Of a DNA stretch of 64,000 bases, positions 16,125 through 57,623 are shown piece by piece. Numbering within the stretch: position 1 is the first letter of the stretch; each line of letters opens with the position of its first letter. The translations under genes and the position numbers were made by a program. Origin of the DNA: Paenibacillus baekrokdamisoli. Its GTDB lineage: Bacteria; Bacillota; Bacilli; Paenibacillales; Paenibacillaceae. The DNA lies in the NCBI RefSeq assembly GCF_003945345.1, contig NZ_AP019308.1:1178001-1242000 (forward strand), read 5' to 3'. The notes below the pieces were generated by a model. That model worked only from the letters and a program-made list of their open reading frames with translations. It made no database searches and had not been told where the DNA came from.

Positions 16125-16129
16125 GATAG

Positions 16130-22451: not shown

Positions 22452-22452
22452 A

Positions 22453-22484
22453 GACTGTCGAGAAACCTCGACAGTCATTTTTTG
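22453..22484 (+). terminator. intrinsic terminator inside ABC operon
   Basis: A perfect 10-bp stem, GACTGTCGAG with CTCGACAGTC, closes an AAAC loop and is followed by ATTTTTTT. Placed between binding protein and permeases, it probably sets their expression ratio. Confidence 0.85.
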
Positions 22485-22487
22485 AAA

Positions 22488-22582: not shown

Positions 22583-22598
22583 AAAGGAGGGATATTGC

Positions 22599-37625: not shown

Positions 37626-37670
37626 ATATTCGTTATTAGGTGAGTTTCTGGCCTAGTAACGAATATTTTT
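37626..37670 (+). terminator. intrinsic terminator
   Basis: ATATTCGTTATTAGG pairs with CCTAGTAACGAATAT (one mismatch) across an 11-nt loop and is followed by TTTT. Its 3' arm overlaps the first half of the regulatory repeat of the next operon. Confidence 0.75.
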
Positions 37671-37704
37671 ATGTTTTACCCGAATAAATTCAAATCCTGT
37701 CGAA
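37660..37704 (+). promoter_or_regulatory. 21-bp-period direct repeat upstream of first saccharide operon
   Basis: CGAATA occurs at 37660 and 37681, a 21-bp period. The segment 37662-37691 is identical at 26 of 30 positions to 48401-48430 upstream of the second binding-protein gene, and weaker similarity (TGT-GAA) continues downstream. Direct repeats of this period are typical of AraC-family sites, so the YesN-type regulator encoded at 51561 is the likely binder. Confidence 0.6.
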
Positions 37705-37844
37705 TTGAAAAAAGCTACTATTGGGATTATGAAAGGCAAGTATTAGAGGATGAAGGAAGAGGTGATTAGGCGCATCTGATTATCCCCACAAAAGTAAGAT
37801 GGTTAAGACAGGATTAAACTAGTTCATCCAAGGGAGGCAATACA

Positions 37845-39164
37845 ATGAAAAGTCAATCAAGAGTAAAAACAATCGGTATGCTTATAATCGCAATGTCCAT
37901 CATTCTTTATGGTTGTTCATCTAGCAAAAAGGAAACTACGGTATCGCCTAATTCAGAAGCTCCTAATACAAGCGCACCTACCGAGGCTCCTGCCAAGACT
38001 GAGAAAGCGAGTATCCGTTTAGCGACTGCGATGGATCCAACTCGTTTAGCTCCCTATGAAAAAGTAGTAGCAGACTGGAATGCGAAGCACCCTGAAACTG
38101 AAGTTGTGTTAGAGAATACTCCCTATGCCGAATATTGGCAGAAAATTCAAGTCATGACCGCTTCCAAAACATTGCCGGATATCTGGGTGTTCACTCCTGG
38201 ACTAGGCTCGCAATGGCTTGAGAATGATCAATTGCTTTCTCTTAGCAGCTATATCAAAAATGACAGCGCTTTAAATATTGAAGATTATCACAAAATGATG
38301 ATTGACTATATGACCTACAAAGGGGAAGTATACGGGTTTCCATATGATGTATCAGCACAGGTCCTTTTCTATAATAAAGATTTATTCGATCAAGCTAAAT
38401 TGGATTACCCAACGGATAAGTGGACGTTTGATGATGTAAGAACGGCAGCGAAGAAAATTTCAGAATTGAAATCCGATAAAGGCAAGGTCTATGGACTTTT
38501 ATCGACGATGGCAGGAGATTTCACGGCTGACTCCTATTTCCGCGCTTTCGGATCAGGCTTAATTACGAAAGACGGTAAAGTAGGGCTTAATAATCAAGGC
38601 GGAATCGATACGCTTCAGTATTTCAAAGACAATATTGATCAAGGAATCACACCGAAACCAGAGCCGGGAAGTCCAACTCGACCGATTTGGCTTAATGGGC
38701 TTGCAGGGATGATGGCAGATGGCGGATGGGCGATTCCATCCTTCAAGGATGTACCCTTCAAATGGGATATGGTCAGTATTCCGGCTGGTCCACAAGGACA
38801 ATTTACAACAGGCTTGGGCGGCACCTATGTGGTAAGCAAGCAAACGAAATTTCCAAAAGCATCCTATGAATTCCTCAAATATTTAACGAGCACGGAAAGT
38901 CTTAATCAGCTTATTACGCAAACGGATGCAGGTGTGCCTGGACGTATATCCTCGCAAGCAGGTCTATCACCATTGCTCAAAAAGTATGCAGATTTGATTA
39001 GCAATGCAACACCGTTTAGCGCAATAAACGGCACGCTGGAAATGCAAGAAATTCTTGGGAAAGATTTGGAACAAGTCTTCAATGGTACGATGTCACCTGC
39101 AGATGCCGTAAAAGATATTGAACTAAAAGGCAACAAAGTGCTGGAAGATAAACAAAAGAAATAA
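37845..39164 (+). CDS. sugar ABC transporter substrate-binding lipoprotein 1
   Basis: The 439-aa protein has a signal peptide ending in ILYGC, a Thr/Pro/Ala linker and a family 1 solute-binding fold. It is a close paralogue of the protein at 48504: long identical stretches such as GFPYDVSAQVLFYNKDLFDQA are shared along the full length. As first gene of an operon with two permeases it is the transport-dedicated copy. GGGAGGC precedes the ATG. Regulation is probably through the 21-bp-period repeat upstream. Confidence 0.93.
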   Translation: MKSQSRVKTIGMLIIAMSIILYGCSSSKKETTVSPNSEAPNTSAPTEAPAKTEKASIRLATAMDPTRLAPYEKVVADWNAKHPETEVVLENTPYAEYWQKIQVMTASKTLPDIWVFTPGLGSQWLENDQLLSLSSYIKNDSALNIEDYHKMMIDYMTYKGEVYGFPYDVSAQVLFYNKDLFDQAKLDYPTDKWTFDDVRTAAKKISELKSDKGKVYGLLSTMAGDFTADSYFRAFGSGLITKDGKVGLNNQGGIDTLQYFKDNIDQGITPKPEPGSPTRPIWLNGLAGMMADGGWAIPSFKDVPFKWDMVSIPAGPQGQFTTGLGGTYVVSKQTKFPKASYEFLKYLTSTESLNQLITQTDAGVPGRISSQAGLSPLLKKYADLISNATPFSAINGTLEMQEILGKDLEQVFNGTMSPADAVKDIELKGNKVLEDKQKK

Positions 39165-39181
39165 CCCGAACTATTCATAAT

Positions 39182-39207
39182 GGCGGATAGACGAAGGTTT
39201 ATCCGCC
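39182..39207 (+). other. hairpin between binding protein and permease
   Basis: GGCGGATA pairs with TATCCGCC across a 10-nt loop, 17 bp after the binding-protein stop. It has no T tract and probably stabilises the upstream message, which would favour binding protein over permeases. Confidence 0.55.
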
Positions 39208-39233
39208 TTACTTCAGGGAAGGACGCGATAGTC

Positions 39234-40106
39234 ATGTACCGTACCCGCGAACAAGCCGCAGCCTATTTATTTATATTACCTTCCTTCGTGAGCTTTATTA
39301 TTTTCGTGCTTGTGCCTGCAGTAATGGGATTAGGGCTATCTTTTTTTCAGTGGGACCTGGTATCGCCTATCCAATTTGTTGGAATGGAGAACTGGTCAGA
39401 TCTTCTTGAGAATAAGGAAGCGCTGGGGAGTATCAAAACAACGATTATATTGGTTATTATTTCTTTGCCTTTAACGGTGATCTGTGGTCTGATACTTGCC
39501 TTGCTGGTCAATAAATTGCCATTTGGAAAGACGTTTTTCCGCTCTGTTTTTTTTATTCCAAGCATTACTTCCATGGTGGCCATGTCTGTAATCTGGGGCA
39601 ACATGTACTCGAAGGACATTGGTCTCATCAACTATGTTTTAAGTCAGGTAGGCATTCAACCTGTAGGATGGCTTTCCAATCCGCATATGGCGCTTATTTC
39701 CATAGTCATCTTGGGGATTTGGTCCTCTGCCGGCTATAATATGCTTATTTTTTTGGCTGGCCTGCAGGGAATCGACGAATCGTTATATGAAGCGGCTAAG
39801 GTAGATGGCGGAGGCGGCTTTTATATATTCTGGAAAATTACATTGCCTTTATTATCGCCAACCTTATTCTTTATTTCGATTACATCCATTATTGGTGGCT
39901 TGCAATCCTTTGAAGCGGTTTACTTGCTGACGGGCGGTGGTCCTGGTTATGCAACAACTACGCTTGTGTATTTCATTGTGAATGCAGCGTTTAAGAGCTT
40001 TAACATGGGACTTGCAGCAACGATTTCTCTAGTGCTTTTCATGTTAATTCTTCTTGTTACTTTGATTCAGTGGAGATTTCAGAAGAAGTGGGTGCATTAT
40101 GATTAA
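39234..40106 (+). CDS. sugar ABC transporter permease (MalF type)
   Basis: The 290-aa product has six membrane helices and an EAA loop (ESLYEAAKVDGGGGFYIFWKITLPLL). ATG 39234 has GGAAGGA about 9 nt upstream; an in-frame ATG at 39180 would put the intergenic hairpin inside the gene. It overlaps the next permease gene by 8 bp. No ATPase gene is present, so a shared ATPase is expected. Confidence 0.92.
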   Translation: MYRTREQAAAYLFILPSFVSFIIFVLVPAVMGLGLSFFQWDLVSPIQFVGMENWSDLLENKEALGSIKTTIILVIISLPLTVICGLILALLVNKLPFGKTFFRSVFFIPSITSMVAMSVIWGNMYSKDIGLINYVLSQVGIQPVGWLSNPHMALISIVILGIWSSAGYNMLIFLAGLQGIDESLYEAAKVDGGGGFYIFWKITLPLLSPTLFFISITSIIGGLQSFEAVYLLTGGGPGYATTTLVYFIVNAAFKSFNMGLAATISLVLFMLILLVTLIQWRFQKKWVHYD

Positions 40107-40938
40107 GTCGCAGCGAAAATTCCCCTTTGGTCTTTATATCAAATATTGTATAACGATTATTCTGGCTTTGCTATTTCTTACACCATTTGTTTGGATGCTA
40201 GCTCTATCGATTAAAACGCTTGGCAATTTTTATGATTTTCCGCCTAAGCTTTGGGTAAGCCATCCGCAATGGTCTAATTTCATCGATGTTTTGAAGCAAT
40301 TTTCACTTTTTCGGTTTTTGTTGAACAGCTTGTTTGTTTCCACTACGATTACTTTGCTGCAGCTCCTTTTGGCTTCCATGGCAGCTTTTGCCTTTGCTGT
40401 TCTTTCCTTCAGAGGGAAAAATGCGCTTTTCATGACTTTTCTACTGAGCCTCATGATTCCGGGTACGGTTATCCTGATCCCGCTTTTTCTAGTCACCCAA
40501 AAGCTTGGAATGCTTGATTCCTACAAAGGCCTCATCCTGCCTTTCCTGTTTACGGGTTACGGGATTTTTATGCTGCGCCAATTTTTTAGGAGTCTGCCCC
40601 GTGATTTCTTTGAGGCGGCACGGATGGATGGGTGCAGCTATTTCGGAATCTATGCCAGAATTTATATACCTCTTTCCAAGCCTGCTTTGGCTACATTAGG
40701 CACACTCGCGTTCATGTCGTTTTATAATTCACTGCTTTGGCCGCTTGTGTCGACCAATAGTGAGCATTTAAAGACAATTCCTGTCGGAATCGCCGGTCTG
40801 GTGGGCCAGAATAATTATATTTATCCGCATCTCGTGATGGCTGGAACCACGATTATGGTCATACCGGGAATCCTTATCTTTATGTTTTTGCAGCGTTATT
40901 TTATTCAAGGCGTGGTCATGTCGGGTATCAAAGGCTAA
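40099..40938 (+). CDS. sugar ABC transporter permease (MalG type)
   Basis: The 279-aa protein is the second channel subunit, with six helices and an EAA loop (DFFEAARMDGCSYFGIYARIYIPLSKP). It overlaps the first permease by 8 bp. The next gene, a PIG-L deacetylase, starts 30 bp later, so transport and processing of the imported compound are encoded on one transcript. Confidence 0.92.
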   Translation: MIKSQRKFPFGLYIKYCITIILALLFLTPFVWMLALSIKTLGNFYDFPPKLWVSHPQWSNFIDVLKQFSLFRFLLNSLFVSTTITLLQLLLASMAAFAFAVLSFRGKNALFMTFLLSLMIPGTVILIPLFLVTQKLGMLDSYKGLILPFLFTGYGIFMLRQFFRSLPRDFFEAARMDGCSYFGIYARIYIPLSKPALATLGTLAFMSFYNSLLWPLVSTNSEHLKTIPVGIAGLVGQNNYIYPHLVMAGTTIMVIPGILIFMFLQRYFIQGVVMSGIKG

Positions 40939-40968
40939 TCAATTTCTGTAAAGAAGGGACATACGTAT

Positions 40969-41649
40969 ATGTTGAATGTTGAAAGGGCGCTGATTATATG
41001 TGCGCATCCGGATGATGAAGTGCTGGGACTGGGCGGTACGATTAAAAAGATGACCAATGCCGGTGTTGAGGTCACTGTTCTGATGTTTGCCAATGGGAAT
41101 GAGGGCTATACCAGCATGGAGGAAATAGCTACTATCGTTGAAACAAGGCGCATAGAACGTGAAGTGGTCCAGAAAATGCTGAATATTCATCATTATGAAG
41201 CCCACAGCTACGAGGATTATGCCATTCCTGCCAATGAAATTACGTATAAAATCTGCATCGAAGCCATTCGTAAATATAAGCCGAATATCGTTTTTACTCA
41301 CTACTGGCAGGAGTACAATACGCACAAAGCGGTGGCATCGATTGCAACCGATGCATTCTGGCAAGCAGGGTGGAGCTGTTCGTTGGATTTGGGCGAGCCT
41401 TGGAAGCCGGATGCTTTGTATTATTTTGAAGTGATCGAGCTGTTGAATCATGTTTCTCATATGGTCGATATTACGGATACCTTTGAAGCGAAAATGGAAT
41501 CCATGCGGGCCTATGCGTCTCAATGTACCGTTGTTTCCGGAGCTTTGCAGCAAATCGAAGGCAAGGCGCTCATGCGAGGCTCACAAGCCGGGCTGAAATA
41601 CGGGGAAGCGTTTCTTAAAAGCATCAATAGACCAGAAATTATTTGTTAG
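40969..41649 (+). CDS. PIG-L family deacetylase
   Basis: The 226-aa cytoplasmic protein has the zinc-binding AHPDDEVLGLGG motif (about residues 12-23) and a downstream THYWQEYNTHKAV histidine region, typical of PIG-L/LmbE deacetylases. These remove N-acetyl groups from GlcNAc-type sugars or conjugates such as GlcNAc-malate or GlcNAc-inositol. Lying directly behind an importer, it suggests that the imported compound contains an N-acetylated amino sugar. That substrate is inference from family and position. AAGAAGGGA precedes the ATG. Confidence 0.92.
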   Translation: MLNVERALIICAHPDDEVLGLGGTIKKMTNAGVEVTVLMFANGNEGYTSMEEIATIVETRRIEREVVQKMLNIHHYEAHSYEDYAIPANEITYKICIEAIRKYKPNIVFTHYWQEYNTHKAVASIATDAFWQAGWSCSLDLGEPWKPDALYYFEVIELLNHVSHMVDITDTFEAKMESMRAYASQCTVVSGALQQIEGKALMRGSQAGLKYGEAFLKSINRPEIIC

Positions 41650-41663
41650 GAGAGTGGAAAAAG

Positions 41664-42869
41664 ATGAACAAAATTCCAGCATCCGAGTTTAAAATGAGGA
41701 TCGATAAGCTGAAAAGCAGCATGAAAAAAGAAAATCTAGATGTTTGCTTCGTATATGGAGATGAGTATCGGAGGGAGAATTTGCGTTATGTCAGCAACTA
41801 CTGGGCTCTCTTTGAGCGGGGGGCATTAATTGTACCGCTTGAAGGTGAACCAATCTTGCTGGCTGCACCAGAAGGGGAGAAAATTTGCTCCGAAATGAGC
41901 GCATGGCCGGACATCCGGGTGATTCCAGACTTTGCCTGTGTAACTGTTCCGGAAGAGATCGAATATCCTCAAGCGGATTATACTGATTTTAATAAAGTGT
42001 TTGCTGAGCTTCGGCTGAAGCAGTCGCTGCAAAGAGTGGGAATTATAGGCTTGGATGCTATGTCGCACATTGTTTATTTATCTATTGCCAACTGTTTAAA
42101 GGGCAGTGAATTGGTAGATGCCAGCCACTTGCTCTATGAAAGCCGGTTGATCAAGTCTGAGTTCGAGATCGCTTGTCTGAAGGAAGCGGGTCGAATCGCC
42201 GATGCTGGTTACAAGGCTTTGTTAATAGCGGCAGCACCGGGGAAAACAGAGCTAGAGCTTGCTGCGGCAGCTCATGAAGCAGCTTTTCGCGAAGGTGCAG
42301 AAACGATTCCCTTCTGCCTTGTATCGAGTGGAGAACGTGTCCATACGATTATAGGCAGAGCAACGAATAAAGTGATTGCCGACGGTGAAATGGTGATGGC
42401 AGCTTTATCTGTACAGTATGAGGGCTATATTGCGACGATCAACTTTCCTTTTGTAGTTGGAGCCATGACGGAGGATCAGGGCAAATTCATTAGCCTATTA
42501 ATTGTGGCGAATGAGCTGGCCAAATCCAAGCTGCAGCCGGGTGCAAGCTTAGCTGATTTAGTTAAAACAGTTAAAGATTATTTCCGAATGCAGAATGTAA
42601 GTCCTTATGATTTATATCCACCCTTGCATGGCTGCGGGGTAGCTGAGGCGGAATTGCCTTATCCGAACGAAGCTTCGGAGGGTGAATTTGTTCCAGGCAT
42701 GACGGTCAATACGGATATAAGCTTATTCGGCCATCCAGCAGGCTCCAATCGGATTGAAGAAGGCTTTGTGGTGACGGCACAGGGCAATGAATCCTTGTCG
42801 GTTCTGATCGGGGAATTATGCAAGCAATGGAAAGAGCATGGATCTATTGATCCTTTAAATATGAAGTAG
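41664..42869 (+). CDS. M24-fold protein with degenerate metal site (creatinase/aminopeptidase P-like)
   Basis: The 401-aa protein has the creatinase N-terminal domain and the C-terminal pita-bread fold of M24 peptidases. The five metal ligands are mostly lost: the DxG aspartate is replaced in MVMAALSVQYEGY, the second Asp is replaced in GYIATINFPF, and the third-ligand Glu is Asp in TVNTDISLF. The His in HGCGVAEAELP and the last Glu in RIEEGFVVTAQG remain. Creatinase also works without metal, so a metal-free hydrolase is possible; a non-catalytic binding protein is the alternative. ATG 41664 has AGGAGAG 8 nt upstream. Confidence 0.82.
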   Translation: MNKIPASEFKMRIDKLKSSMKKENLDVCFVYGDEYRRENLRYVSNYWALFERGALIVPLEGEPILLAAPEGEKICSEMSAWPDIRVIPDFACVTVPEEIEYPQADYTDFNKVFAELRLKQSLQRVGIIGLDAMSHIVYLSIANCLKGSELVDASHLLYESRLIKSEFEIACLKEAGRIADAGYKALLIAAAPGKTELELAAAAHEAAFREGAETIPFCLVSSGERVHTIIGRATNKVIADGEMVMAALSVQYEGYIATINFPFVVGAMTEDQGKFISLLIVANELAKSKLQPGASLADLVKTVKDYFRMQNVSPYDLYPPLHGCGVAEAELPYPNEASEGEFVPGMTVNTDISLFGHPAGSNRIEEGFVVTAQGNESLSVLIGELCKQWKEHGSIDPLNMK

Positions 42870-42902
42870 TTAGTATATTTCAATGTAAAGGAGAGCTGGG
42901 AA

Positions 42903-44888
42903 ATGGGTTCGCATGCTAATTATGCCAGATGGATTTGGGTCGAGTTAATTGGGTTTGATAATGAACATAGTGATTATGCGGTTAAAGCCTATATCGATAA
43001 TCTCGGATTTGTTCCTGATGCCCTCTCCTTGCTTTTTTTCACTCCAGAGTTTGTCCATAATCATGAGAATATGGAAATAGAGCGGGCACTACCGCGTGAA
43101 TGCTGTTCCTATACGGCTCGCCCTTATAACAGGGAACGAGCAAGGCAGGCTTGGACCAACCATCAGCTGAGAAATTTAATAGCGGAGCTTCAAAAATATA
43201 ATATCGCGGTGTATTGCAGCTTTTTTAATATCTACGAGTACAATTTTGATGGAGAGAAATTTAGAGGCGACTGGTCAGATAAGCATAGCTATCTCTGTGA
43301 GCGTATGAAGTCAGGGCTGCTGCATGGTTTGTTAAATCCACTGAAGCGCTTTGAGAATCAAACGTATTATGAAGATTTTTTTATAAGCAAGCTGACGCAG
43401 GTATTAACTGATTATGGCTTTAATGGCTATCATGGGGCAGATGGTTATACAAGTGGGCGAATTACACTAGCCGAGGGCGATTATTCAGACGATATGGTAG
43501 GGCAGTTTATAGCCTCAAGGAAATTGGAGTCTATTGCAGAAATCACCGCTTTTTGTGAAGGGCGGCAAGCTGAATTTGAGCAAAGAGCAGAATGGATCTG
43601 GGCGAATCTGCGTGAAGAATGGATAGCTTTCTATGCGGACCGTTGGGAACTGTTTTGGCAAAAGGTCGTAGCTGCCGTTCATCGGGATCATCGCAAGGTC
43701 GTGTTTAATACGGCTTGGACCCGAGATCCGTTTGAGGCCTTATATCGTTACGGAGTGGATTACAGACGAATTGCGAACACCGGCATCGATGGTTTTGTAG
43801 TGGAAACCGTAGGCGCTTCCTTAATCATGGGTGCGGGAGGCGTGGAAATGAATCCGCACTACGATTTCCTCGCTATGCTCATGACGATTAAAGCCTACGT
43901 GCCGAAGGTCGATTTATACTGCTTGAATGCAATTCAAGATACGACTGAGCGATGGGATGCTTTACGGCATGCGCCAACGATTCTGGAACGGGATATTTAT
44001 TCGCTTTCCAATGTATTCTGGATGAATGAAGCTGGCGCGTTAAATCGCTGCTCCACCGGATTCGTCGCCTGTCTCTCAGACGGTATTCATCATCACGAAT
44101 GGAAATGGATCCATAATCGCTGGAATCTTGCCTTTGGCGAGGGTCCGAAACAGATTCTTGGAGCGACAATGATCTGGTCGGATTATGCCTTTAACAATCA
44201 ATTATCTGACTATGTGAGAACTAGAGGCTGGTCGACTCATAAGCTGCTTCATGAGCTGATTTCAAGAGGAGCTCCCATTCATTCGATAGTGAATATTAAA
44301 TTTCTCGAGCAAGCACATGGGGCCATTCTTGTGCCTCATTCACATCTTCTATCCGAAGATGAACGGAGAGCCGTATCCGCTTATAGCAACGGACCTGTAA
44401 TTATGATCGGTCCAGAGCTTAGTGACATTCAAGAAGATCAGCTTAGCTGCGCTGTATACGGCGAGAAGGGTCGCTTAGACCAAAGCTTCACGGCTGATCA
44501 AGAGTTGCTAACAGCGGATGAACTTAAAGATATTAATGATCCAAAATACTGGGTGCACGAGCTCTATTTTCAGAGGATTTCGGATGATTTCTTACAGAAA
44601 TGTGCAAATGTCATTGGCGAGCATACCGGTTCACCACAAATTCTTCAAGGTGCAGCCGTTATAGAGGTAACCGCTTTGCAATTGTCAGACAATTATATTC
44701 GTCTATTCATCGGAAATGATCATGTGAATTACAGCGAAGCCAGAATTGAAATGGGAAAGCGGATTGTGACGATCGCGATTCGTACAGATTTCCCGGGAAC
44801 GCCTGTTATTCCAGAAGGGAAATGCTTTAACGTAAGAGTGCCGGGCAGAGGTATTGTGGTTCTGGATGTCGCAACGGAAACGAATTAA
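42903..44888 (+). CDS. unassigned large TIM-barrel, glycosidase-like protein
   Basis: This 661-aa cytoplasmic protein has no signal peptide or membrane helix. I cannot place it in a named family. The N-terminal two thirds alternate predicted strands and helices, with YGFNGYHGADGYTSG, KVVFNTAWTRDP and GIDGFVVETVGA arranged like the barrel strands of glycoside hydrolases, including a candidate acidic residue (Glu of VVETVG). The part after about residue 430 (AHGAILVPHSHLLSEDERRAV) resembles the Rossmann-like trimerisation domain seen in GH42-type enzymes. Its position between the deacetylase/M24 pair and the ASRT homologue implies processing of the imported saccharide. AAAGGAGAG precedes the ATG. 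Confidence 0.7.
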   Translation: MGSHANYARWIWVELIGFDNEHSDYAVKAYIDNLGFVPDALSLLFFTPEFVHNHENMEIERALPRECCSYTARPYNRERARQAWTNHQLRNLIAELQKYNIAVYCSFFNIYEYNFDGEKFRGDWSDKHSYLCERMKSGLLHGLLNPLKRFENQTYYEDFFISKLTQVLTDYGFNGYHGADGYTSGRITLAEGDYSDDMVGQFIASRKLESIAEITAFCEGRQAEFEQRAEWIWANLREEWIAFYADRWELFWQKVVAAVHRDHRKVVFNTAWTRDPFEALYRYGVDYRRIANTGIDGFVVETVGASLIMGAGGVEMNPHYDFLAMLMTIKAYVPKVDLYCLNAIQDTTERWDALRHAPTILERDIYSLSNVFWMNEAGALNRCSTGFVACLSDGIHHHEWKWIHNRWNLAFGEGPKQILGATMIWSDYAFNNQLSDYVRTRGWSTHKLLHELISRGAPIHSIVNIKFLEQAHGAILVPHSHLLSEDERRAVSAYSNGPVIMIGPELSDIQEDQLSCAVYGEKGRLDQSFTADQELLTADELKDINDPKYWVHELYFQRISDDFLQKCANVIGEHTGSPQILQGAAVIEVTALQLSDNYIRLFIGNDHVNYSEARIEMGKRIVTIAIRTDFPGTPVIPEGKCFNVRVPGRGIVVLDVATETN

Positions 44889-44911
44889 GAAGATTACAGG
44901 AGGGAAGAACA

Positions 44912-45289
44912 ATGGCAAATCACGGTAAAAAAAGCTGGTATATTGTCGATGGGTGGCTGCCGAGCCAAGCAGAATTGCAGAACTCATTCTATGAAGGACA
45001 TGAAGCCGTAATGATTCTAAACTGCCATCCTGTTGATGCGGAGGTCATCATGGATATTTATTATGAGGATAAAGAGCCTATTGAAGGAATCCGCATTCAT
45101 GTTCCGGCCAAAAGAGTGAAGTGTCTCCGGATGGATCACCCTGAGGAAATAGGCGGTATCGCACTGCAGAAGCATGAACAATACTCCTTAAAGATAACAA
45201 GCTCGGTTGAAGTTATCGTGCAATATGGAAGAATGGACGTCACTCAATCAAATCTCGCCTATATCGGAATGATGGGTTATTCAGAATAG
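44912..45289 (+). CDS. sensory rhodopsin transducer (ASRT)-family protein
   Basis: This 125-aa protein aligns by eye along its whole length with the Anabaena sensory rhodopsin transducer family. It has the SWYIVDGWLPS start, HEAVMILNCHPVDAEVIMDIYYEDKEP, the VPAKRVKCLRMD strand and VEVIVQYGRMDVTQSNLAY near the end. No rhodopsin gene is nearby. Members in heterotrophic bacteria sit in carbohydrate gene clusters, and the beta-sandwich has been proposed to bind small sugar-like ligands. Here it may sense or carry the saccharide, or bind DNA as proposed for ASRT. GGAGGGAAG precedes the ATG. Confidence 0.85.
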   Translation: MANHGKKSWYIVDGWLPSQAELQNSFYEGHEAVMILNCHPVDAEVIMDIYYEDKEPIEGIRIHVPAKRVKCLRMDHPEEIGGIALQKHEQYSLKITSSVEVIVQYGRMDVTQSNLAYIGMMGYSE

Positions 45290-45308
45290 AAAAGGAGATG
45301 AATCGTAG

Positions 45309-48341: not shown

Positions 48342-48398
48342 ACAGCTGCTCCTTTTGATGAAAAAATTATTGGGTATACCATGCATGCAACCATTTTC

Positions 48399-48443
48399 CG
48401 AATATTTTTATATTACTCCCGAATAAATTCTAACTATGTTGAA
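48399..48443 (+). promoter_or_regulatory. 21-bp-period direct repeat upstream of second saccharide operon
   Basis: CGAATA occurs at 48399 and 48420, again 21 bp apart, in a 30-bp block 26/30 identical to the one at 37662. TTGAAC (48439-48444) may be a -35 element. The shared motif ties both operons to one regulator. Confidence 0.6.
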
Positions 48444-48503
48444 CCTTAGGATGTTATGTTATAGAGGGAGTATGCTTCCAATGTAGTTCGTTTAGGGGGT
48501 TCT

Positions 48504-49802: not shown

Positions 49803-49828
49803 CGATCGTATACACGAGGGTGAGCACA

Positions 49829-51586
49829 ATGAAGCTGTCTTCTAGGAGTTTAGTTACACAGATGCTCTTATATTTTTCTTTGCTAGTGTTAACCCCGTTG
49901 ATCATTATCATCCTATTAAGCTATGCCACCTTTACCCGAAGTATGGGAGAAGAAATAAAGAAGTCGATCCAACAATCGATTAATTATGAGGTCGATAAGC
50001 TAGAGGTGTATTATTCAGTTCTTACCGAATTGACCAACAATATCGTGAACTATGAGGAGTTATGGAGGCTTCTTGAAAAGCAAGATTCTATTGCCAAGGA
50101 TGATGATTCGGCAGTGACTGTGAATAAACTTGATATTTCGGAGTCTTTGAGAATTCTGAAGAATTCTCGAAATGACGTGATGGATATTGGTTTATTCACC
50201 AAGTCCGGTGGTGTGTTTCATTCTGTGCTGTATGACTATAATCCGGGCAGTATTTTTCTGAAGGAAAGTAAGCTTTTGCAATCATCTTGGTATCAGGATT
50301 TTAATAATCATGGGCTGGTGAGAGGGATTTATCGTTCTTCTGAAGATCGTATGGTGTTTCTCAGTCGAATCAATAATCCCCGAACATTTACGGATTTTTA
50401 TGGGACACTGATTTATGAACTGGATATAAAGTTCTTTGATCAAATTTTTCAGGAGAATGCTAACCAATATCAATCCTCGATTTATTTGTTTAATGAGCAA
50501 GATGAGCTGATTTATTCTAAGGGAGATGCGATAGCTTCACAGAAACTGCAGGTTATTCGCAGCTCAGACATCGCCGCAATGGCCAAGAATAGCAACAAGT
50601 ATTTAGTAGTAAGTAAACATTCTCATTCAACCAATTGGTCTACTTACGAGGTTGTTCCTTACAAGACAATGATGAAGGATGCTAATTCACTTAGAAATAC
50701 TTCTTTTTTATTGGTTCTTGTCAGTTATTTTGCTGCGGTATGCGTAACATTTTTCTTAGGACATCAAGTGGTAAGACCGCTGAAAAAGCTAATGATAGCC
50801 ATGAGGCAGCTTGGATCCGGCTTCCAAGGCATCACTATGAAAGTAAATGGACCCGTAGAAGTCCAGGAAATTACGAAACGATTTAATACCATGGAGCTGC
50901 AAATTGGCAGGTTGATTACGAATGTTGTGGAGGAACAGCAGAAGGTTCGGGAGGCAGATCTTTCGGCTTTGCAAGCGCAAATTCATCCGCACTTTTTATA
51001 CAATACACTTAATTTAATTGTTTTTCTAGCCCGTAAGAATAAAGTAAATGAAATTCAATCGTTAACGGGTTCCTTGATCGAATTCTTGCAAAATTCACTC
51101 AAGACTAATCGCTTCGTTGACACGATCGCTAATGAGCTTCGGATGATAGAGCATTATGTCCTGCTCCATCAGCATCGCGCGGAAGGAAAGGTTAGCCTAT
51201 TCATCGAGGCGGATCTTGATTTGCTGGGCATCCATATCCCAAAATTTATTCTACAACCATTAGTAGAGAATGCGATTTTCCATGGTATATATCCCAAGGA
51301 TGGACATGGCAGCATTAGAATTGTCGTTCAAAGAATCGGCAATCTATGTGAAATTAGAGTGATTGATGATGGGGTTGGCTTGAATTCGCAGCTTATTCCC
51401 GAACCCCATAAGGGTCTTGGCATGAAAAATGTAAGACAGCGCTTTTTGAATTATTTCTCAGAAGGAAATTCGGGTATGGACGTTGCGAGCAAGCCTGGGA
51501 TAGGAACAGTAATCGTATTATTCTTTCAAATAACACAACTCGGGCAGGTGGTGATGAAAGATGAAGACCGTACTGATCGTGGATGA
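49829..51586 (+). CDS. YesM-type sensor histidine kinase
   Basis: The 585-aa kinase has an N-terminal helix, an extracellular sensor domain (about 35-285, Cache-like), a second membrane helix (about 290-312), a HAMP linker and a HisKA-type domain of the LytS/YesM group. The phosphoacceptor His is in QIHPHFLYN (about residue 385), and the N box is PLVENAIFHGI. ATG 49829 is preceded by GAGGGTGAG; an in-frame GTG lies 9 nt upstream. The 3' end overlaps the regulator gene by 26 bp. It is expected to sense an extracellular saccharide directly or through the adjacent binding protein. Confidence 0.92.
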   Translation: MKLSSRSLVTQMLLYFSLLVLTPLIIIILLSYATFTRSMGEEIKKSIQQSINYEVDKLEVYYSVLTELTNNIVNYEELWRLLEKQDSIAKDDDSAVTVNKLDISESLRILKNSRNDVMDIGLFTKSGGVFHSVLYDYNPGSIFLKESKLLQSSWYQDFNNHGLVRGIYRSSEDRMVFLSRINNPRTFTDFYGTLIYELDIKFFDQIFQENANQYQSSIYLFNEQDELIYSKGDAIASQKLQVIRSSDIAAMAKNSNKYLVVSKHSHSTNWSTYEVVPYKTMMKDANSLRNTSFLLVLVSYFAAVCVTFFLGHQVVRPLKKLMIAMRQLGSGFQGITMKVNGPVEVQEITKRFNTMELQIGRLITNVVEEQQKVREADLSALQAQIHPHFLYNTLNLIVFLARKNKVNEIQSLTGSLIEFLQNSLKTNRFVDTIANELRMIEHYVLLHQHRAEGKVSLFIEADLDLLGIHIPKFILQPLVENAIFHGIYPKDGHGSIRIVVQRIGNLCEIRVIDDGVGLNSQLIPEPHKGLGMKNVRQRFLNYFSEGNSGMDVASKPGIGTVIVLFFQITQLGQVVMKDEDRTDRG

Positions 51587-53123
51587 TGAAGCGTTTGTAA
51601 GGGAAGAGCTCAATGAGCGAATTGACTGGAAGAAGTATGGATATAAGCGAGTAATTGAAGCAGATAACGGAAGCAGGGGCTTGGAGTGCTTCAAGCGAGA
51701 AAGCCCGGACTTGGTATTTACAGATATCCGTATGCCGGTCATGGATGGCATTACATTTTGTTCTGAATTAAAGAAGCTTAATCAACATGTCAAAATTGTC
51801 GTGCTCAGCTCTTATATGGATTTTGATTATGTACGTCAGGCCTTTAAGCTCGGTGTTGTTGACTATCTGCCGAAGCATCAAATGGAAGATCATCATGTGT
51901 CGGCATTATTCCAACGTTTAGCAGAGGCAGACAAAGGAGAGAATCAAGTCGTCAATATACTCGGGAAAAGAGTCCATTTGCGACATTGGTTAATGGATCC
52001 TCAAGCCTCCGAATCTTCTGTAAGTCTAAAGGAACAATACGTTCCACCTTTAAACTCCAAGCTTATGCTATTGCAGATGCGGGTTGATGATTACAACTGG
52101 CGCAAGCAAGCTTCTCCTGTTTGGCGAAATCCAAGGGAGATAGAAAAGCAAATTGTTCAAATGGTGAATAAAGCGGCATTAGAGTTAAAAGTAGAAATGA
52201 CAGATGTTAATGAAGATATTATATTAATGGTTTGCGCCTTTCCTGAGACTTCAACCCACTCCTTCCTATACTCACATATGCGTAACTTCGCACAAACTAT
52301 GCAGAATTTAATGGATGATCAGCTGAGAATTAGCGTTTCCATACTCTATTCCCCGGGCTCGGTTTCAGGCAAAGAGCTGCCTGCTGCATTCGAGAAAATA
52401 AGACTTGAATCCAAGCGAATACATCACGAAAAGGAAATAAGATCGATCGACCAAGTAAATAAAGCATTCGTGCTGCAAGCGGTAAGACCAGATTCAATTG
52501 AAGAGCTTCGAGCTCTTATCCGTGCAGGTGAAGTCGACAAAGTAAAGCAAATTCTGCAAGTGCTTTGGTTGGAGCAAGCTCCTTTGATGGAAACGCGGCA
52601 GATCGGAATTTGTTTCAGAAAGCTCCTCAGAGAGCTTTATCGGATTTATCAAGAGAATACCAGCATGCAAGAAGAATATACGGATCTATCTCTCGTTTCT
52701 TTGGATCATTTTACAACATTTGAAGGCTTGTTCGAATGGTCCTTTTCTGTTGCAAAAAAGCTGCTTGACGAAGTAGCCGTGACAGCAGGCAGCAGAGTTA
52801 AGGACAAAAAAATCCACGAAATATTAGATTATCTCCATGCCAATCCGGAGGAAGATTTAGGCTTAAACGCGATTGCTGAAAAATTTCATTTCAATAAATC
52901 CTACTTGTCCGAAATGTTCAAGCTGAAGGTAGGTACTACTTACACCCGTTACACGACTAATATTCGTATGGAGCTGGCTAAGCAATGGCTCGAGACATCT
53001 GACTTGTCGATTCAAGAAATCAGTGAACGAATTGGCTTTAATGATGCAGCTTATTTTATCAAAACCTTTCGGATTTATATGGGAAAATCTCCCGAAAAGT
53101 TTCGCAAGAGTATGAATAAATAA
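51561..53123 (+). CDS. YesN-type response regulator with AraC output domain
   Basis: The 520-aa protein has a receiver domain (acidic DDE, phosphoacceptor Asp55 in FTDIRMP), a long helical linker region (about 130-400) usual for this group, and a C-terminal AraC/XylS DNA-binding domain with two helix-turn-helix motifs (about 415-515, ending IGFNDAAYFIKTFRIYMGKSPEKFRK). It overlaps the kinase gene by 26 bp. AraC domains contact direct repeats about 21 bp apart, and such a repeat precedes both operons here. It is the best candidate activator of the whole 37.8-57.6 kb locus. Confidence 0.93.
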   Translation: MKTVLIVDDEAFVREELNERIDWKKYGYKRVIEADNGSRGLECFKRESPDLVFTDIRMPVMDGITFCSELKKLNQHVKIVVLSSYMDFDYVRQAFKLGVVDYLPKHQMEDHHVSALFQRLAEADKGENQVVNILGKRVHLRHWLMDPQASESSVSLKEQYVPPLNSKLMLLQMRVDDYNWRKQASPVWRNPREIEKQIVQMVNKAALELKVEMTDVNEDIILMVCAFPETSTHSFLYSHMRNFAQTMQNLMDDQLRISVSILYSPGSVSGKELPAAFEKIRLESKRIHHEKEIRSIDQVNKAFVLQAVRPDSIEELRALIRAGEVDKVKQILQVLWLEQAPLMETRQIGICFRKLLRELYRIYQENTSMQEEYTDLSLVSLDHFTTFEGLFEWSFSVAKKLLDEVAVTAGSRVKDKKIHEILDYLHANPEEDLGLNAIAEKFHFNKSYLSEMFKLKVGTTYTRYTTNIRMELAKQWLETSDLSIQEISERIGFNDAAYFIKTFRIYMGKSPEKFRKSMNK

Positions 53124-53148
53124 AATAATCATAAAAGGAAGTATTGAA

Positions 53149-54270
53149 ATGAATCCACTTATCGAAAAAACTGCATTTATTGGACTGATGGATCACACCT
53201 GGTTTTATAGTGGAGCTGAATCACCGCCTCACCAGGGGTGTATGGATGCGGTTAATGAATATATGATGGCTCGCACTCTGGGACCGGATGGTCGTGAACG
53301 CAATACCCAGGTAGAGCAGACCTGCAAGAGTAATATTGCCCAACTGCTTAAGGGAAAGCCCGCAGATATTGCGTTTCTCTCTAATTCTTCCGAGGCCATT
53401 TCAATGATAGCCCAATCATTAGTATTGGAAAAGGGCGATAATATCGTGATCAATACCTTGGAATTTCCCTCTGGCATTCTGCCATGGCTTCTACTAAAAG
53501 ATAAAGGTGTGGAGGTTCGTATCGTCAATCATGCCAATTGGGAAATATCCGTGGAAGATATCATGAACCAAGTCGATTCGCATACCAAGCTGGTTATGAC
53601 CAGCCATGTAAGTTATTTATCAGGTGCCAGATTGGATTATAAAGCGCTATACGCTCAGCTTAAGACAACAGAAGCCTTATTATTGCTGGATATTACACAG
53701 TCACTCGGTGCCGTAGCGGTTGATATGAATCATGCGGATTTCGTTGTATGCAGCTCCTATAAATGGTTGCTGTCCATACATGGATTATCGATATTGGGTA
53801 TTAACCCAGCCCGTGCTGCTCGATTTAATTCACGTTCTATAGGCTGGCGCAGTGTAACCGATATGTTTGGGCCTAATCGATTTGAGGCATTTGATTTCCA
53901 TGCGGATGCACGTCGATTTGAACTAGGCTTTCCGAGCTATCCGACGATTTATGCAACTAATTTTTCGACGAGTCTGCTTTTGGAGATCGGGGAAAGCCGC
54001 ATTGAGTCTCATATTCTCGAGCTAGGCAGGTATTTAATAGATCAGTTAACCGAGTTGGGTTATGAGATTATGACACCGTCAGATCCAGAAAGAAGAGCCG
54101 GAAATATATGTATCGTTGCGAAGCATGGAGATAAGATTGCCGAGAATTTACGCAAGCAGCGGGTATATATTTGGGGCGGAGATGGCAGATTCCGTGTGTC
54201 ATTGCATGTATTCAATGATAAGGAGGATATCGATAAGCTGGTTTTATTACTTGGAATGAAACAACTATAG
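53149..54270 (+). CDS. class V aminotransferase-fold PLP enzyme
   Basis: The 373-aa cytoplasmic protein has the fold-type I layout of cysteine desulfurase-like enzymes. It has a sugar-clamp-like start (GAESPPHQGCMDAVNEY), the cofactor-stacking region FLSNSSEAISMIAQSL, Asp in LLLLDITQSLGAV and the Schiff-base lysine in VVCSSYKWLL. The cysteine-bearing loop expected of a desulfurase is not evident, so an aminotransferase or lyase acting on an amino-acid or amino-sugar part of the substrate is likelier. It lies 25 bp after the regulator and 16 bp before the next gene. Confidence 0.82.
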   Translation: MNPLIEKTAFIGLMDHTWFYSGAESPPHQGCMDAVNEYMMARTLGPDGRERNTQVEQTCKSNIAQLLKGKPADIAFLSNSSEAISMIAQSLVLEKGDNIVINTLEFPSGILPWLLLKDKGVEVRIVNHANWEISVEDIMNQVDSHTKLVMTSHVSYLSGARLDYKALYAQLKTTEALLLLDITQSLGAVAVDMNHADFVVCSSYKWLLSIHGLSILGINPARAARFNSRSIGWRSVTDMFGPNRFEAFDFHADARRFELGFPSYPTIYATNFSTSLLLEIGESRIESHILELGRYLIDQLTELGYEIMTPSDPERRAGNICIVAKHGDKIAENLRKQRVYIWGGDGRFRVSLHVFNDKEDIDKLVLLLGMKQL

Positions 54271-54286
54271 AGGGGGAATAGCTCCA

Positions 54287-56542
54287 ATGATGCACAATTC
54301 AATAATGATCAGGGATCGACTCCGTGAGGCAAATCAAAGTTCGCTACATAAGGAACGGAGAAAAGCACATCGGTTTGTTCGAGCCTTAAATACCCATGCC
54401 CTTCCAAGGGAAGAAGAATTGAAAATAGCGGGAAATTGGCTAATTTATTCTAATGATTCAATCCCAGGTATGGTTGAAGCCATAACAGATCTAAAAGAAT
54501 ATTGGCTTAAAAGCGGACTATCCCTATCTGATGATGCAAGTCAGATGATAGGCATACAGTTGCGTGTGGATATAGAGGACGGTTGCTTTACACGATTGGT
54601 AACAGCCGAACGAATTGAAATAATGGCGAGCACAATGAAGGGGATTTGGGCGGGGATCGTTCATTTACAGCAGGAGCTATCTGCGCGACAAGCTCCTTTT
54701 TTAAAAGCAGGCTTAATTGAATGCCAGCCATCTTGGAAAATACAAGTCAGTCAGTCTCCATTTGGCTCCAACTATTTGGTTCCGGATTTATCTGAAACTT
54801 ATTTGTCCAATGATGCCTTTCGCATGCTGGCACATTCAGGAATCAATGGGATGATCATTTATGGAGATTGGCTGTGTTATGTCCAAAGCAGCATTTACCC
54901 CGAATTGAATTGTGTAGATTATGAGCGGAATATCATGCAGCTGCGGGATGCAATCGAACGCGCCAAACGATATGGGGTACAGCTGTTTTATGTGCCTGTA
55001 AGCCCTAAATTAGCGATGGATCATCCGTTGTTTGTGAAGTATCCGAAATCACGGGGAGCACAAAATTTCTCCGGTTTATCTGAAAACTCGCCTAAAATTT
55101 TTAATTTGTGCTCATCTGATCCAACGACACTCGCCTTTCATGGTGAGGTAATGGCTAATTTATTCAAAGAAGCACCGGATTTGGGCGGACTGATCCTGAT
55201 TATTGGCGGCGAATCCTACTATCACTGTTTTATGCGACCCGATAAAAATGGGCTTGAAGCACATGAGAGAACCAATTGTCCTGGGTGTAAGGCTTATGCG
55301 CCTGAAGTAGTTGTCAATGGACTGCTTGCAGCAACCGAGGAGGCCGTTCATCGGGTTAAAGCAGATGCCTGGATCATGGCTTGGCCCTATAGTGCCTTTT
55401 TCTGGTCGAGTGACCCGGCGCAGCTGCAGCTTCTGGAGAATATGCCGGAGGAAGTGGCTTTGTTAAGCACGATTGAAAAGGATGAATGGTTACAAAAGGA
55501 TGGATACCAAAAGTCGATTTGGGATTACAGCATTGATTTTACAGGTCCTGCGGGAAATTTAATTCAACAAGCTGAAATAATTAAAACCCGTGAGATGCAG
55601 CTAGTTGTAAAGACCGAAACAGCGCTGGGGCTCGAGTGTATCCAGTACCCATATATGCCTAGTTTACAACGGCTTGCCGAGAAATGGCGCCATGTAAGTG
55701 AGTTGAATCCAGATGGTGTAGTGCAATCATGGATGTTCTTCGGTATGTGGGGCTCGCGAGCGGAGGAGTTGGGCTGGTGGGCATCATGGCATCCAGAAAA
55801 AACCACGGATGAAGTATTAGTGCTGATGGCAAGCAGGGATTTTGCCGAGAATGCGTCAACGATGATTCAAGTATGGTCTTACCTAAGTGAAGCTGCCGGA
55901 CATTTCCCTTATGTAGCCCATTATTTCACGGGGCCGGAGTTTCTTGGACCTGCGCATCCTTTCTTTTTTGAGGATCCTGTACCGCTTCCGATCGAATTCA
56001 CTTCACTTTTATATTATTTACAAGAGAATGAAGAAAGCTTTTCTTCGACAGTTACTGATATTCGGCAAACCCTCTTATTGGATCGTTTTCCACATGCGAT
56101 GCTGAAGGAGGTATTCAAAGCAGATGAGGGACGAGAAGTCTCGCAGCTTGTTATCGCCGAATATGAAGCTGCCGTTGCAGCGTCAGAGAAGGCCTATCTT
56201 TTAATTAAAGACATACCGCTTCCAGAGGATCCGATTTTGCTGCAATCATTACAGGAGGAATCGCTGCTATGTGAGCTAATCTATCGAACCTTTGTCACAA
56301 CCGCTCATACGTATCGATTTTTATTGCTTAAAGAGCAGTTAGCTGAATCGCCTAATGAGGCTGCTTTTGCAGAAATGAAGGAAATTGTGAAAGACGAGCT
56401 TGAGAATACACGGCATGCCCGACATATTTTTCAAGAAGCACCTTGGCTGGATTTGGCTTTGCGTTTGGATGGTAAGTATCCTTCGAGTATTCAGATGATT
56501 GATTCTAAGCTCGTCATGATGGAACAAGGCTCCACATTTTGA
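54287..56542 (+). CDS. unassigned glycosidase-like protein with GH20-type N-terminal domain
   Basis: The 751-aa cytoplasmic protein begins with an alpha/beta domain (about 45-140) like the non-catalytic domain that precedes the barrel of GH20, GH67 and GH84 enzymes. A barrel-like region follows (HSGINGMIIYGDWLCYV, YGVQLFYVPVSPK, GGLILIIGGESYYHCF) and a helical C-terminal part. Glu in IIGGESYYH is a candidate catalytic acid. No exact family was recognised. A CPGC pair (in RTNCPGCKAY) could bind metal. The GH20-like context agrees with an N-acetylhexosamine substrate, but this is inference. Confidence 0.7.
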   Translation: MMHNSIMIRDRLREANQSSLHKERRKAHRFVRALNTHALPREEELKIAGNWLIYSNDSIPGMVEAITDLKEYWLKSGLSLSDDASQMIGIQLRVDIEDGCFTRLVTAERIEIMASTMKGIWAGIVHLQQELSARQAPFLKAGLIECQPSWKIQVSQSPFGSNYLVPDLSETYLSNDAFRMLAHSGINGMIIYGDWLCYVQSSIYPELNCVDYERNIMQLRDAIERAKRYGVQLFYVPVSPKLAMDHPLFVKYPKSRGAQNFSGLSENSPKIFNLCSSDPTTLAFHGEVMANLFKEAPDLGGLILIIGGESYYHCFMRPDKNGLEAHERTNCPGCKAYAPEVVVNGLLAATEEAVHRVKADAWIMAWPYSAFFWSSDPAQLQLLENMPEEVALLSTIEKDEWLQKDGYQKSIWDYSIDFTGPAGNLIQQAEIIKTREMQLVVKTETALGLECIQYPYMPSLQRLAEKWRHVSELNPDGVVQSWMFFGMWGSRAEELGWWASWHPEKTTDEVLVLMASRDFAENASTMIQVWSYLSEAAGHFPYVAHYFTGPEFLGPAHPFFFEDPVPLPIEFTSLLYYLQENEESFSSTVTDIRQTLLLDRFPHAMLKEVFKADEGREVSQLVIAEYEAAVAASEKAYLLIKDIPLPEDPILLQSLQEESLLCELIYRTFVTTAHTYRFLLLKEQLAESPNEAAFAEMKEIVKDELENTRHARHIFQEAPWLDLALRLDGKYPSSIQMIDSKLVMMEQGSTF

Positions 56543-56579
56543 CAAGCAGACGCGTGGAAAAAACCGGAGGGATCATAGG

Positions 56580-57623
56580 ATGAATACATTGGTTTGGACA
56601 GCTGTTGAAGAAATGAGCTGGGAGCATCGGGATGCACCGCATCTGCAAGAAGATGAAGTATTGATTCAAGTTGAGGTTGTAGGTATTTGCGGTTCTGAAA
56701 TAGAAGGCTATCTGGGACATAATAGTTTGCGTATTCCACCCTTGATCATGGGGCATGAATTCTGTGGGCGGATTGCTCAGCTGGGAACGGGGATAGCAGA
56801 GGATAGTGGAATTAAGCTTGGAGTTAAAGTGGTCGTCAATCCTTTGTTATTCTGCGGGAAGTGTCTTAGCTGTGAGAAAGGGCTGACACAGCTTTGTGAA
56901 AAACGTGCTGTTATTGGTATCCATCGACCAGGAGCATTTAGCGAATGGGTTGCTGTTCCTGCGAGTGCTGTTGTTGTCTTACCTGATACAATTAGCTCCT
57001 TTCGGGCCGCATTAGCAGAGCCTCTAGCCTGTTCTGTAAGAGCGACAAGACGAGCATTGGAGCATCATCCTATGGCGAATGTCGTTGTTTTTGGTGCTGG
57101 AGGGATTGGATTGCTGTGCGCGAAAATGGCTCGGATCTTAGGTGCGGATCAGATCATAGTCGTGGATACGAATCCAGAGCGCTTGCAAATTGCTATGGCT
57201 AATGGTGTGAATGCTGTGATTAATCCGAAAGAAGAAGATATAGGGGCAAGGATTAAATCAATGGCTGGCAGAAAAGGTGTAAATGTAGTGATTGATGCGG
57301 CTGGCTTTCAACCAACAAGGGAAACTGCGGTTATGCTGCTTAATCCAGGCGGAACCTTAATGAATATAGGCTTAGGGATTGACGCCACTAGCTTGCCGAT
57401 TAACTATACCATTCGAAGTGAAATCGAAATAAAGGGATCGTTTAGCTATACTAAACAGGACTTTCAGGATGCCGTTAATTTATTAATTGATGGAAAAATA
57501 ACAGAAGCAGGTTGGACGGAAGTACGCCCCATGTCTGAGGGAGGCCATGCCTTTGCCGAACTGGTAGCTGGAAAAGTGATGAATGGAAAGATATTCCTGA
57601 CCTTAAGCGAAGGAGTATTCTAA
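56580..57623 (+). CDS. zinc-dependent medium-chain dehydrogenase
   Basis: The 347-aa protein is an MDR-family alcohol/polyol dehydrogenase. The catalytic zinc region has CGSE and GHEFCGRI, the structural zinc lobe is CGKCLSCEKGLTQLC, and the NAD-binding motif is VFGAGGIGLLCAKM with an acidic residue (VVDTNPE) favouring NAD. Relatives oxidise sorbitol, threonine or sugar hydroxyls. As last gene of the second saccharide operon it probably oxidises a released sugar or polyol. GGAGGGAT lies before the ATG. Confidence 0.92.
   Translation: MNTLVWTAVEEMSWEHRDAPHLQEDEVLIQVEVVGICGSEIEGYLGHNSLRIPPLIMGHEFCGRIAQLGTGIAEDSGIKLGVKVVVNPLLFCGKCLSCEKGLTQLCEKRAVIGIHRPGAFSEWVAVPASAVVVLPDTISSFRAALAEPLACSVRATRRALEHHPMANVVVFGAGGIGLLCAKMARILGADQIIVVDTNPERLQIAMANGVNAVINPKEEDIGARIKSMAGRKGVNVVIDAAGFQPTRETAVMLLNPGGTLMNIGLGIDATSLPINYTIRSEIEIKGSFSYTKQDFQDAVNLLIDGKITEAGWTEVRPMSEGGHAFAELVAGKVMNGKIFLTLSEGVF

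Follow-up and report, generated by a model that had tools for sequence, protein, structure and literature searches.

A 64,000-nt stretch of the 7,261,317-base genome of Paenibacillus baekrokdamisoli (contig NZ_AP019308.1, positions 1,178,001 to 1,242,000; hereafter the window, whose own numbering is used for positions within it) carries two adjacent operons that encode a sugar importer, a YesM/YesN two-component system, and an uncommon set of intracellular enzymes, and that are very probably co-regulated as one glycan locus. The main evidence that both operons serve one purpose is a repeat shared by their upstream regions, together with a Paenibacillus locus in which genes of both stand in a single run. 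We regard as real a glycan locus of new composition whose core, an M24-like protein family, occurs widely and, within the scope of our searches, is uncharacterized. That both operons belong to a single inducible regulon, which would import an N-acetylated amino-sugar glycan and dismantle it in the cytoplasm, strikes us as an evenly balanced proposition.

The two operons and their shared upstream repeat

The ORF map of the window places all 14 genes on the + strand, eight in operon 1 (37845-48341) and six in operon 2 (48504-57623), in the same-direction arrangement given by a preliminary description made from the sequence alone. The gene calls of that description agree with Pfam for the solute-binding proteins (SBPs), permeases, PIG-L, M24, ASRT, YesM/YesN, class-V pyridoxal phosphate (PLP), and dehydrogenase proteins. 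The two barrel proteins that it had left unassigned, P661 and P751, have no Pfam family at an E-value of 0.001. The genes and the two repeat copies are as follows.

37660..37691, +, motif copy 1, putative YesN operator, 185 nt upstream of the SBP1 start
37845..39164, +, SBP1, sugar-type solute-binding protein (PF01547 3.2e-37; lipoprotein signal by eye)
39180..40106, +, ABC permease 1 (PF00528 5.6e-17)
40099..40938, +, ABC permease 2 (PF00528 1e-19)
40969..41649, +, PIG-L/LmbE deacetylase (PF02585 4.9e-22)
41643..42869, +, M24/creatinase-like protein, both Asp metal-ligand positions lost (PF00557 6.7e-24)
42903..44888, +, P661, 661-aa intracellular barrel protein of glycoside hydrolase (GH) type (model, fold matches)
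44912..45289, +, ASRT, predicted sugar-binding regulator/sensor (PF07100 4.5e-33; PMC2739507)
45309..48341, +, SEC1010, 1010-aa secreted multidomain protein (FlgD-Ig PF13860; hydrolase-like central part by eye)
48399..48430, +, motif copy 2, 105 nt upstream of the SBP2 start
48504..49802, +, SBP2, solute-binding protein (PF01547 9.6e-39)
49820..51586, +, YesM-type sensor kinase (His_kinase, HATPase_c, HAMP)
51561..53123, +, YesN-type AraC response regulator (Response_reg, HTH_18)
53149..54270, +, PLPV, PLP class-V enzyme (PF00266 4.2e-39)
54287..56542, +, P751, 751-aa intracellular protein, putatively of the GH67/GH138/GH20 superfamily (predicted fold, family profile)
56580..57623, +, zinc-dependent dehydrogenase (PF00107 1.7e-31, PF08240 1e-24)

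The PIG-L and M24 genes overlap by 7 nt. SBP1 and SBP2, one leading each operon, had been described as duplicates and share 63% identity over 433 aligned positions. Operon 2 contains SBP2 and no permease genes, and a Pfam scan revealed no ABC ATPase gene in operon 1 or operon 2; we assume that the importer ATPase is supplied from elsewhere in the genome.

The upstream motif that the preliminary description had noticed is a 45-nt repeat (37660-37704 and 48399-48443) at 80% identity ahead of both operons, and within its 32-nt core CGAATA half-sites occur twice, at a spacing of 21 nt. A search of the whole genome for this core, allowing up to three mismatches, returned exactly two matches, and the reversed control none; since the pattern was built from both copies, these match with zero mismatches by construction, and the informative part is the absence of further matches. 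In Paenibacillus eucommiae (L070), 25 of the 32 motif positions are matched before the orthologous operon (SBP 70% identical, permeases 71 and 70%, P661 50%, PIG-L 80%, M24 73%, YesM 50%, YesN 42%), compared with a maximum of 20 among 200 shuffled 300-base window pieces. The nine other stretches of the ten tried matched 15 to 20 positions, within the shuffled range. YesN may be the protein that binds the repeats before both operons. Between 37600 and 49000, promoter-like sites (19, against 28.2 in shuffles) and terminator-like sites (7, against 8.8) were fewer than in shuffled sequence, and one weak terminator-like site of five pairs (48334-48348) lies at the end of operon 1.

Co-occurrence of the genes in two modules

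The neighborhood check that the preliminary description had proposed was run across 295 genomes of the host's family, its own included, with the M24-like and PLPV proteins searched at E-values up to 1e-60. The scan scored the first few candidates per genome, so the locus counts are lower bounds, and two fragment rows of P661 genes were dropped from the distance count. The genes co-occur, and they do so as two modules with different distributions, a structure that the preliminary description had missed. Module A comprises the M24-like protein, P661, ASRT, and PIG-L. The M24-like protein was present in 12 genomes and P661 in 13, with 11 of the 295 containing both (hypergeometric probability 3e-17); P661 lay within 15 kb of M24 in 15 of 16 M24 loci, and M24 was near 15 of 20 P661 loci. 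Module B comprises PLPV, the zinc dehydrogenase, and a P751-type protein, often with M20, RidA, and MBL-fold hydrolases. PLPV was present in 19 genomes and a P751-type protein in 13, with 12 containing both (hypergeometric probability 9e-16); a P751-type gene lay within 15 kb in 13 of 24 PLPV loci, and PLPV was near 14 of 23 P751-type loci. Both probabilities ignore the kinship of the genomes and thus overstate their independence. Of the 294 other genomes, 2 yielded orthologs of P751 itself (54-56%), the remaining hits being 25-30% relatives.

The surroundings of PLPV were compared in 23 distinct loci with a PLPV of >50% identity, reading 20-21 kb at each (the window whole, some loci cut by contig ends). 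The most frequent neighbors were M20 and Gfo/Idh proteins (19 loci each), dehydrogenases (16), MBL (15), RidA (12), and GntR (11); P751 or its relatives occurred in 13, SEC1010-like proteins in 5, and M24, P661, and PIG-L in 3 each. Some 7 kb beyond the window, the host genome has another such cluster (L153, 1242001-1262000), with a PLPV paralog (69%), a dehydrogenase, Gfo/Idh, DUF4838, and P751-like proteins, and an ABC importer of its own; the third PLPV of the genome is in L154.

The two operons might be unrelated catabolic units with separate substrates that merely adjoin, as the modules are mostly apart: just 2 of the 16 M24 loci, the window among them, have PLPV within 15 kb, and M24 is near few of the PLPV loci, as counted above. 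Against this, the motif copies are unique to the two operons in the genome and the binding protein is duplicated. The modules are moreover interleaved in L055, a contig that we take to be the same as that of L072 (Paenibacillus sp. J5C2022), where SEC1010, PLPV, PIG-L, M24, P661, dehydrogenase, GntR, M20, RidA, MBL, Gfo/Idh, and P751-like genes form one run; in L071, members of modules A and B stand side by side. We therefore consider mere adjacency very improbable and treat the two operons as one locus.

PIG-L lies directly upstream of M24 in the window, L070 (with a 90-aa ORF call between them), L071, L055, and L168. The last of these, from Paenibacillaceae, combines PIG-L, M24, and ASRT; encoded upstream of them are a protein with a SIS_2 domain and two others, of 379 and 373 aa, that have no Pfam family.

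Other genes around the operons were also recorded. A DUF7002 protein (36917-37612) lies directly upstream of operon 1; PADLOC gave no match for it, nor for any of the three proteins submitted. Directly past operon 2, on the opposite strand, is a GDSL/GxDLY esterase (57818-58930, -), a relative of which sits inside the M24/P661 operon of L114. The window also contains a second sugar ABC operon (16081-24381), one product of which (1628 aa) has S-layer and GHL10 domains, and an L-arabinose isomerase gene (5377-6903), which at 30 kb from the operons was not counted as a FucI-like partner.

The M24-like protein family

The M24-like protein has the M24 fold and a creatinase N-domain (PF00557, 6.7e-24; PF01321, 1.1e-10; both above cut-off). 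We take the five metal ligands of M24 metallopeptidases to be D, D, H, E, and E. Alignment to PepQ (3q6d) shows that the window protein does not have this set, as both aspartates are gone, replaced by A254 and T265. The preliminary description had called the protein degenerate, and the loss of both ligand positions extends through 82 of 82 aligned sequences: position 254 is A, S, or G and position 265 is T or S in every one, with Asp at neither, and H329, D358 (for Glu), and E372 are retained throughout. Equally invariant are R232, R239, E335, E337, N356, S360, N369, R370, and the N-terminal GDEYRxE residues. The 82 rows (>40% identity, 350 aa) are one from each of 79 of the 80 loci analyzed below and three from the host genome. 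Eighteen of 100 M24-like rows were left out, namely L129 and 17 at 26-34% identity, mostly Clostridial or Spirochaetal second copies, which likewise have no Asp at either position. Because the Asp loss coincides with so many invariant residues, the alignment suggests a separate family with different chemistry rather than decay. Since the metallopeptidase ligands are missing, the activity implied by the family name is unlikely.

Searching GTDB genomes with the M24 alignment yielded 128 relatives, the best 80 of which were analyzed. They span 12 named phyla, which the preliminary description had not noticed: 46 loci are from Bacillota, 9 from Lentisphaerota, 5 from Planctomycetota, 3 each from Spirochaetota, Bacteroidota, Acidobacteriota, and Armatimonadota, with single loci in five more phyla and 3 without a named phylum. 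The closest relatives with named records are from Paenibacillus. Within 10 kb of the match (some contigs being shorter, and ORFs with matches being preferred), the neighbors were ASRT in 36 loci, a PTE-type protein in 35, P661 in 33, a FucI-like isomerase in 32, PIG-L in 16, and a DUF2334/polysaccharide-deacetylase-type protein in 12. All four members of the window clade (the window, L070, L071, and L072; SH-aLRT 99) have both P661 and PIG-L. M24, P661, ASRT, and PIG-L occur together in 5 of the 80 loci (L111, L131, L142, L147, and L149, from Omnitrophota and Lentisphaerota), which the tree places well away from the window clade.

Several further observations concern this family. The host genome has other M24/P661/ASRT loci, L067 and L068, with PTE-type and FucI-like genes; L067 additionally encodes two amidohydrolases, a melibiase-type protein, and an S-layer DUF4838 protein. 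Ten mostly Clostridial loci (L095, L100, L101, L102, L104, L107, L109, L110, L113, and L116) have a second M24-like gene, usually in tandem and 29-34% identical, alongside a ribose-type ABC importer and LacI, PTE, or ASRT. The ligand positions of the second copy read Q, T, H, C, E in nine of the ten and Q, T, H, D, E in L100, a further variant of the site. To judge from its position, there may also be an antisense ORF family over the M24 gene.

Creatinase and ectoine hydrolase share the M24 fold and hydrolyze non-peptide C-N bonds, and creatinase and DoeA are not known to need a metal. The window protein was rejected as an ectoine hydrolase DoeA, as it scored 80.7 bits on NCBIfam NF038259 against a cut-off of 575. 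That model is nevertheless its top NCBIfam hit, and the partners of the protein raise the question of whether the locus acts on an amino conjugate, either of the sugar-amino-acid kind or of another (opine, Amadori, or ectoine-like), with the barrel proteins as accessories. In PMC3187862, DoeA is an M24 protein similar to creatinase and is partnered by a deacetylase, a transaminase, and a dehydrogenase, and the M24-family hydrolase, deacetylase, PLP enzyme, and dehydrogenase of the window echo this DoeA-DoeB-DoeD-DoeC series. In contrast to the ectoine cluster, the deacetylase is of the PIG-L type, the PLP enzyme is of class V, and a sugar importer and GH-like proteins are present. The window set may thus repeat the logic of the ectoine pathway, a likeness that we treat as an analogy because the M24 score is so far under the model cut-off. 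That score also speaks against an amino conjugate as substrate, as does the recurrence of two large GH-type proteins, a secreted multidomain protein, ASRT, and a sugar ABC importer with M24 or the window partners, and we consider such a substrate improbable.

We tentatively propose, as something possible rather than probable, that the M24-like protein founds a cross-phylum, metal-independent family whose members cleave C-N bonds of sugar derivatives. The protein would form the core of an undescribed amino-sugar pathway together with ASRT, PIG-L or a polysaccharide-deacetylase-type protein, a FucI-like isomerase, and P661, applying ectoine-like logic to carbohydrates.

Barrel proteins, substrate, and proposed pathway

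The model of P661 (mean pLDDT 86.8) predicts a fold like that of GH153/GH42-type barrels. Its barrel matches Cwp19 with Z 24.5 and the GH153 domain of PgaB with Z 23.6 (rmsd 3.5, 315 aligned), and the whole chain matches GH42, GH164, and an alpha-L-fucosidase, presumably GH151, at Z 18 to 20 (rmsd >5, ~10% identity). Candidate active-site residues are D180 (47 of 48 sequences, one gap), D286 and E349 (48 of 48 each), and E278 (46 of 48). At E-values up to 5, Pfam gave only scattered weak hits for 20 P661 members (GHL6 at 0.11 in one), and the P661 profile matched nothing among PDB sequences at 0.1. An ungapped match found by eye between P661 FNGYHGADG and PgaB FDGILFHDD, which would set D180 on the probable catalytic Asp of PgaB, is not relied on. 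PgaB combines a deacetylase and a GH153 domain; the P661 barrel is similar to the latter in its predicted fold, and a DUF2334/polysaccharide-deacetylase-type gene neighbors M24 in the 12 loci counted above. In contrast to PgaB, to which no sequence similarity was found, P661 is encoded by a separate gene and has an extra C-terminal part aligning with GH42-type chains.

For P751 (pLDDT 80.3), the model predicts a GH138/GH67/GH20-like fold, with GH138 as the best match (Z 19.6, rmsd 5.4, 582 aligned), followed by the Cwp19 barrel (17.7), GH67 (17.5), and then GH115, GH20, and GH84. A family profile of 18 sequences, 15 of them distant relatives, matched GH20 and GH67 chains at E-values of 2e-5 to 7e-4 (GH20 best at 2e-5, GH67 at 3.6e-4), so that the GH20-like N-domain proposed in the preliminary description holds at the family-profile level. 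P751 resembles the GH138, GH67, GH20, and GH84 enzymes in its predicted N-domain and barrel and in a Glu after the fourth strand (E309, invariant in 18 of 18), the candidate acid; it differs from them in its ~10% identity, the lack of a Pfam family, and profile E-values no better than those given. For both barrel proteins, a predicted fold in common with GH enzymes is no proof of function.

These folds bear on whether the substrate might be a uronic-acid-rich plant or algal glycan without an amino sugar, with P751 as an alpha-uronidase and PIG-L acting on another acyl group or a cellular thiol conjugate. The best folds of P751 are GH138, a rhamnogalacturonan II enzyme, and GH67 glucuronidases; DUF4838 proteins accompany related loci, and one of them gave a weak GH67-like N-domain hit that fell narrowly short of its cut-off; and the FucI-like isomerase, PTE, and amidohydrolase partners of sister M24 loci suggest lactone or aldose chemistry. 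P751 matches GH20 and GH84 as well, however, and PIG-L, a clear superfamily member (79.2 bits, Pfam cut-off 28.2), has diacetylchitobiose deacetylases as its closest solved relatives (4.9e-23). Its residues H13, D15, D16, and H119 are present in 17 of 17 sequences, the HxDD motif and later His presumably having metal and catalytic roles. A thiol deacetylase identity was rejected, with BshB1 reaching 105.1 of 182.5 bits and BshB2, MshB, and Mca scoring lower. Also at odds with a purely uronic substrate is the frequency of M20 and RidA near PLPV (19 and 12 of 23 loci), as these proteins are typical of N-acyl and imine chemistry. A uronic-acid glycan seems to us rather unlikely, and an N-acetylated amino-sugar glycan remains the best-fitting substrate, at about even chances.

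PLPV has its presumed PLP lysine, K205, in 22 of 22 sequences and a Cys at 339-349 in none of 22. The SufS cysteine desulfurase has its catalytic Cys in a C-terminal loop, and we do not file PLPV as a desulfurase because this Cys is missing and its NCBIfam score (107.2 of 475.1 bits) is far under the SufS cut-off. L-threonine 3-dehydrogenase and other named zinc dehydrogenases were likewise rejected, the best model giving 175.4 of 380 bits and none of the 25 listed (of 26) reaching its cut-off. ASRT is a member of its family (114.2 bits, Pfam cut-off 25). SEC1010 has a 67% relative in L055 and, at 0.01, FlgD as its sole relative among PDB sequences; of its description as secreted and multimodular, the FlgD-Ig domain is backed by a profile hit, and the remainder is read by eye.

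Among the closest known systems are Bacillota glycan-utilization loci that combine a sugar ABC importer with YesM/YesN control. The window locus is like them in its SBP, two permeases, YesM/YesN pair, secreted protein outside, and trimming enzymes inside, and unlike them in its barrel enzymes outside Pfam and its M24-like, PIG-L, ASRT, PLP, and dehydrogenase set. Starting from the gene set, the co-occurrence, the motif, the residue loss, and the predicted folds, we infer a pathway as to its reactions, step order, control circuit, and amino-sugar substrate alike. SEC1010 would act outside the cell, and SBP1 with the two permeases and an ATPase from elsewhere would import oligosaccharides. SBP2, whose gene adjoins YesM/YesN and has no permease genes with it, may deliver ligand to the sensor, upon which YesN would bind the CGAATA pairs (21-nt spacing) in front of the two operons. 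Within the cell, P751 (GH67/GH138/GH20-like) and P661 (GH153/GH42-like) would take off sugars and PIG-L would remove the N-acetyl group. The M24-like protein would most likely perform metal-independent C-N hydrolysis on a sugar derivative, like creatinase and ectoine hydrolase, PLPV and the dehydrogenase would process the freed amino sugar, and ASRT would sense sugar, as proposed for ASRT proteins in PMC2739507 (De Souza et al. 2009). The operons described there resemble the present one in having a solo ASRT among sugar-metabolism genes, and some of those operons also hold a sugar isomerase; the main text of that paper nowhere uses the words M24, peptidase, LmbE, or phosphotriesterase.

Several observations weigh against this pathway, in addition to the rarity of M24 and PLPV as neighbors. 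The predicted P751 fold suits uronidases no less than it suits hexosaminidases. The match of P661 to the GH153 barrel is unspecific, since GH42-type chains match too and GH-type barrels are mutually alike, and hhalign rejected P661 as a PgaB homolog (probability 0.2%, 20-row alignment against one PgaB sequence). The M20, RidA, and MBL genes frequent beside PLPV are absent from the window's operons. Among the 80 M24 loci, 64 have no nearby PIG-L and 47 no P661, and therefore neither is universal to M24 function; many Clostridial members adjoin a ribose-type importer and LacI instead. L129, cut by a contig end, keeps Asp at position 254, with Thr at 265.

Taken together, the co-occurrence supports the preliminary reading of co-regulated saccharide uptake and breakdown by uncommon enzymes; as to amino-sugar or amino-acid content in the substrate, the PIG-L protein, the GH20/GH67-like N-domain, and the M20/RidA partners are suggestive but no proof. 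Family and literature searches placed the enzymes in no single characterized pathway, and no publication describing the gene set was found in the literature searched, which leaves out most subscription journals. A conserved gene set, with an M24 member in 12 named phyla, points to a glycan catabolic pathway. One biochemical result would re-annotate the M24-like family in Clostridia, Lentisphaerota, Planctomycetota, Acidobacteriota, Paenibacillaceae, and others, and the same result would assign a function to the two families of barrel proteins that have no entry in Pfam.

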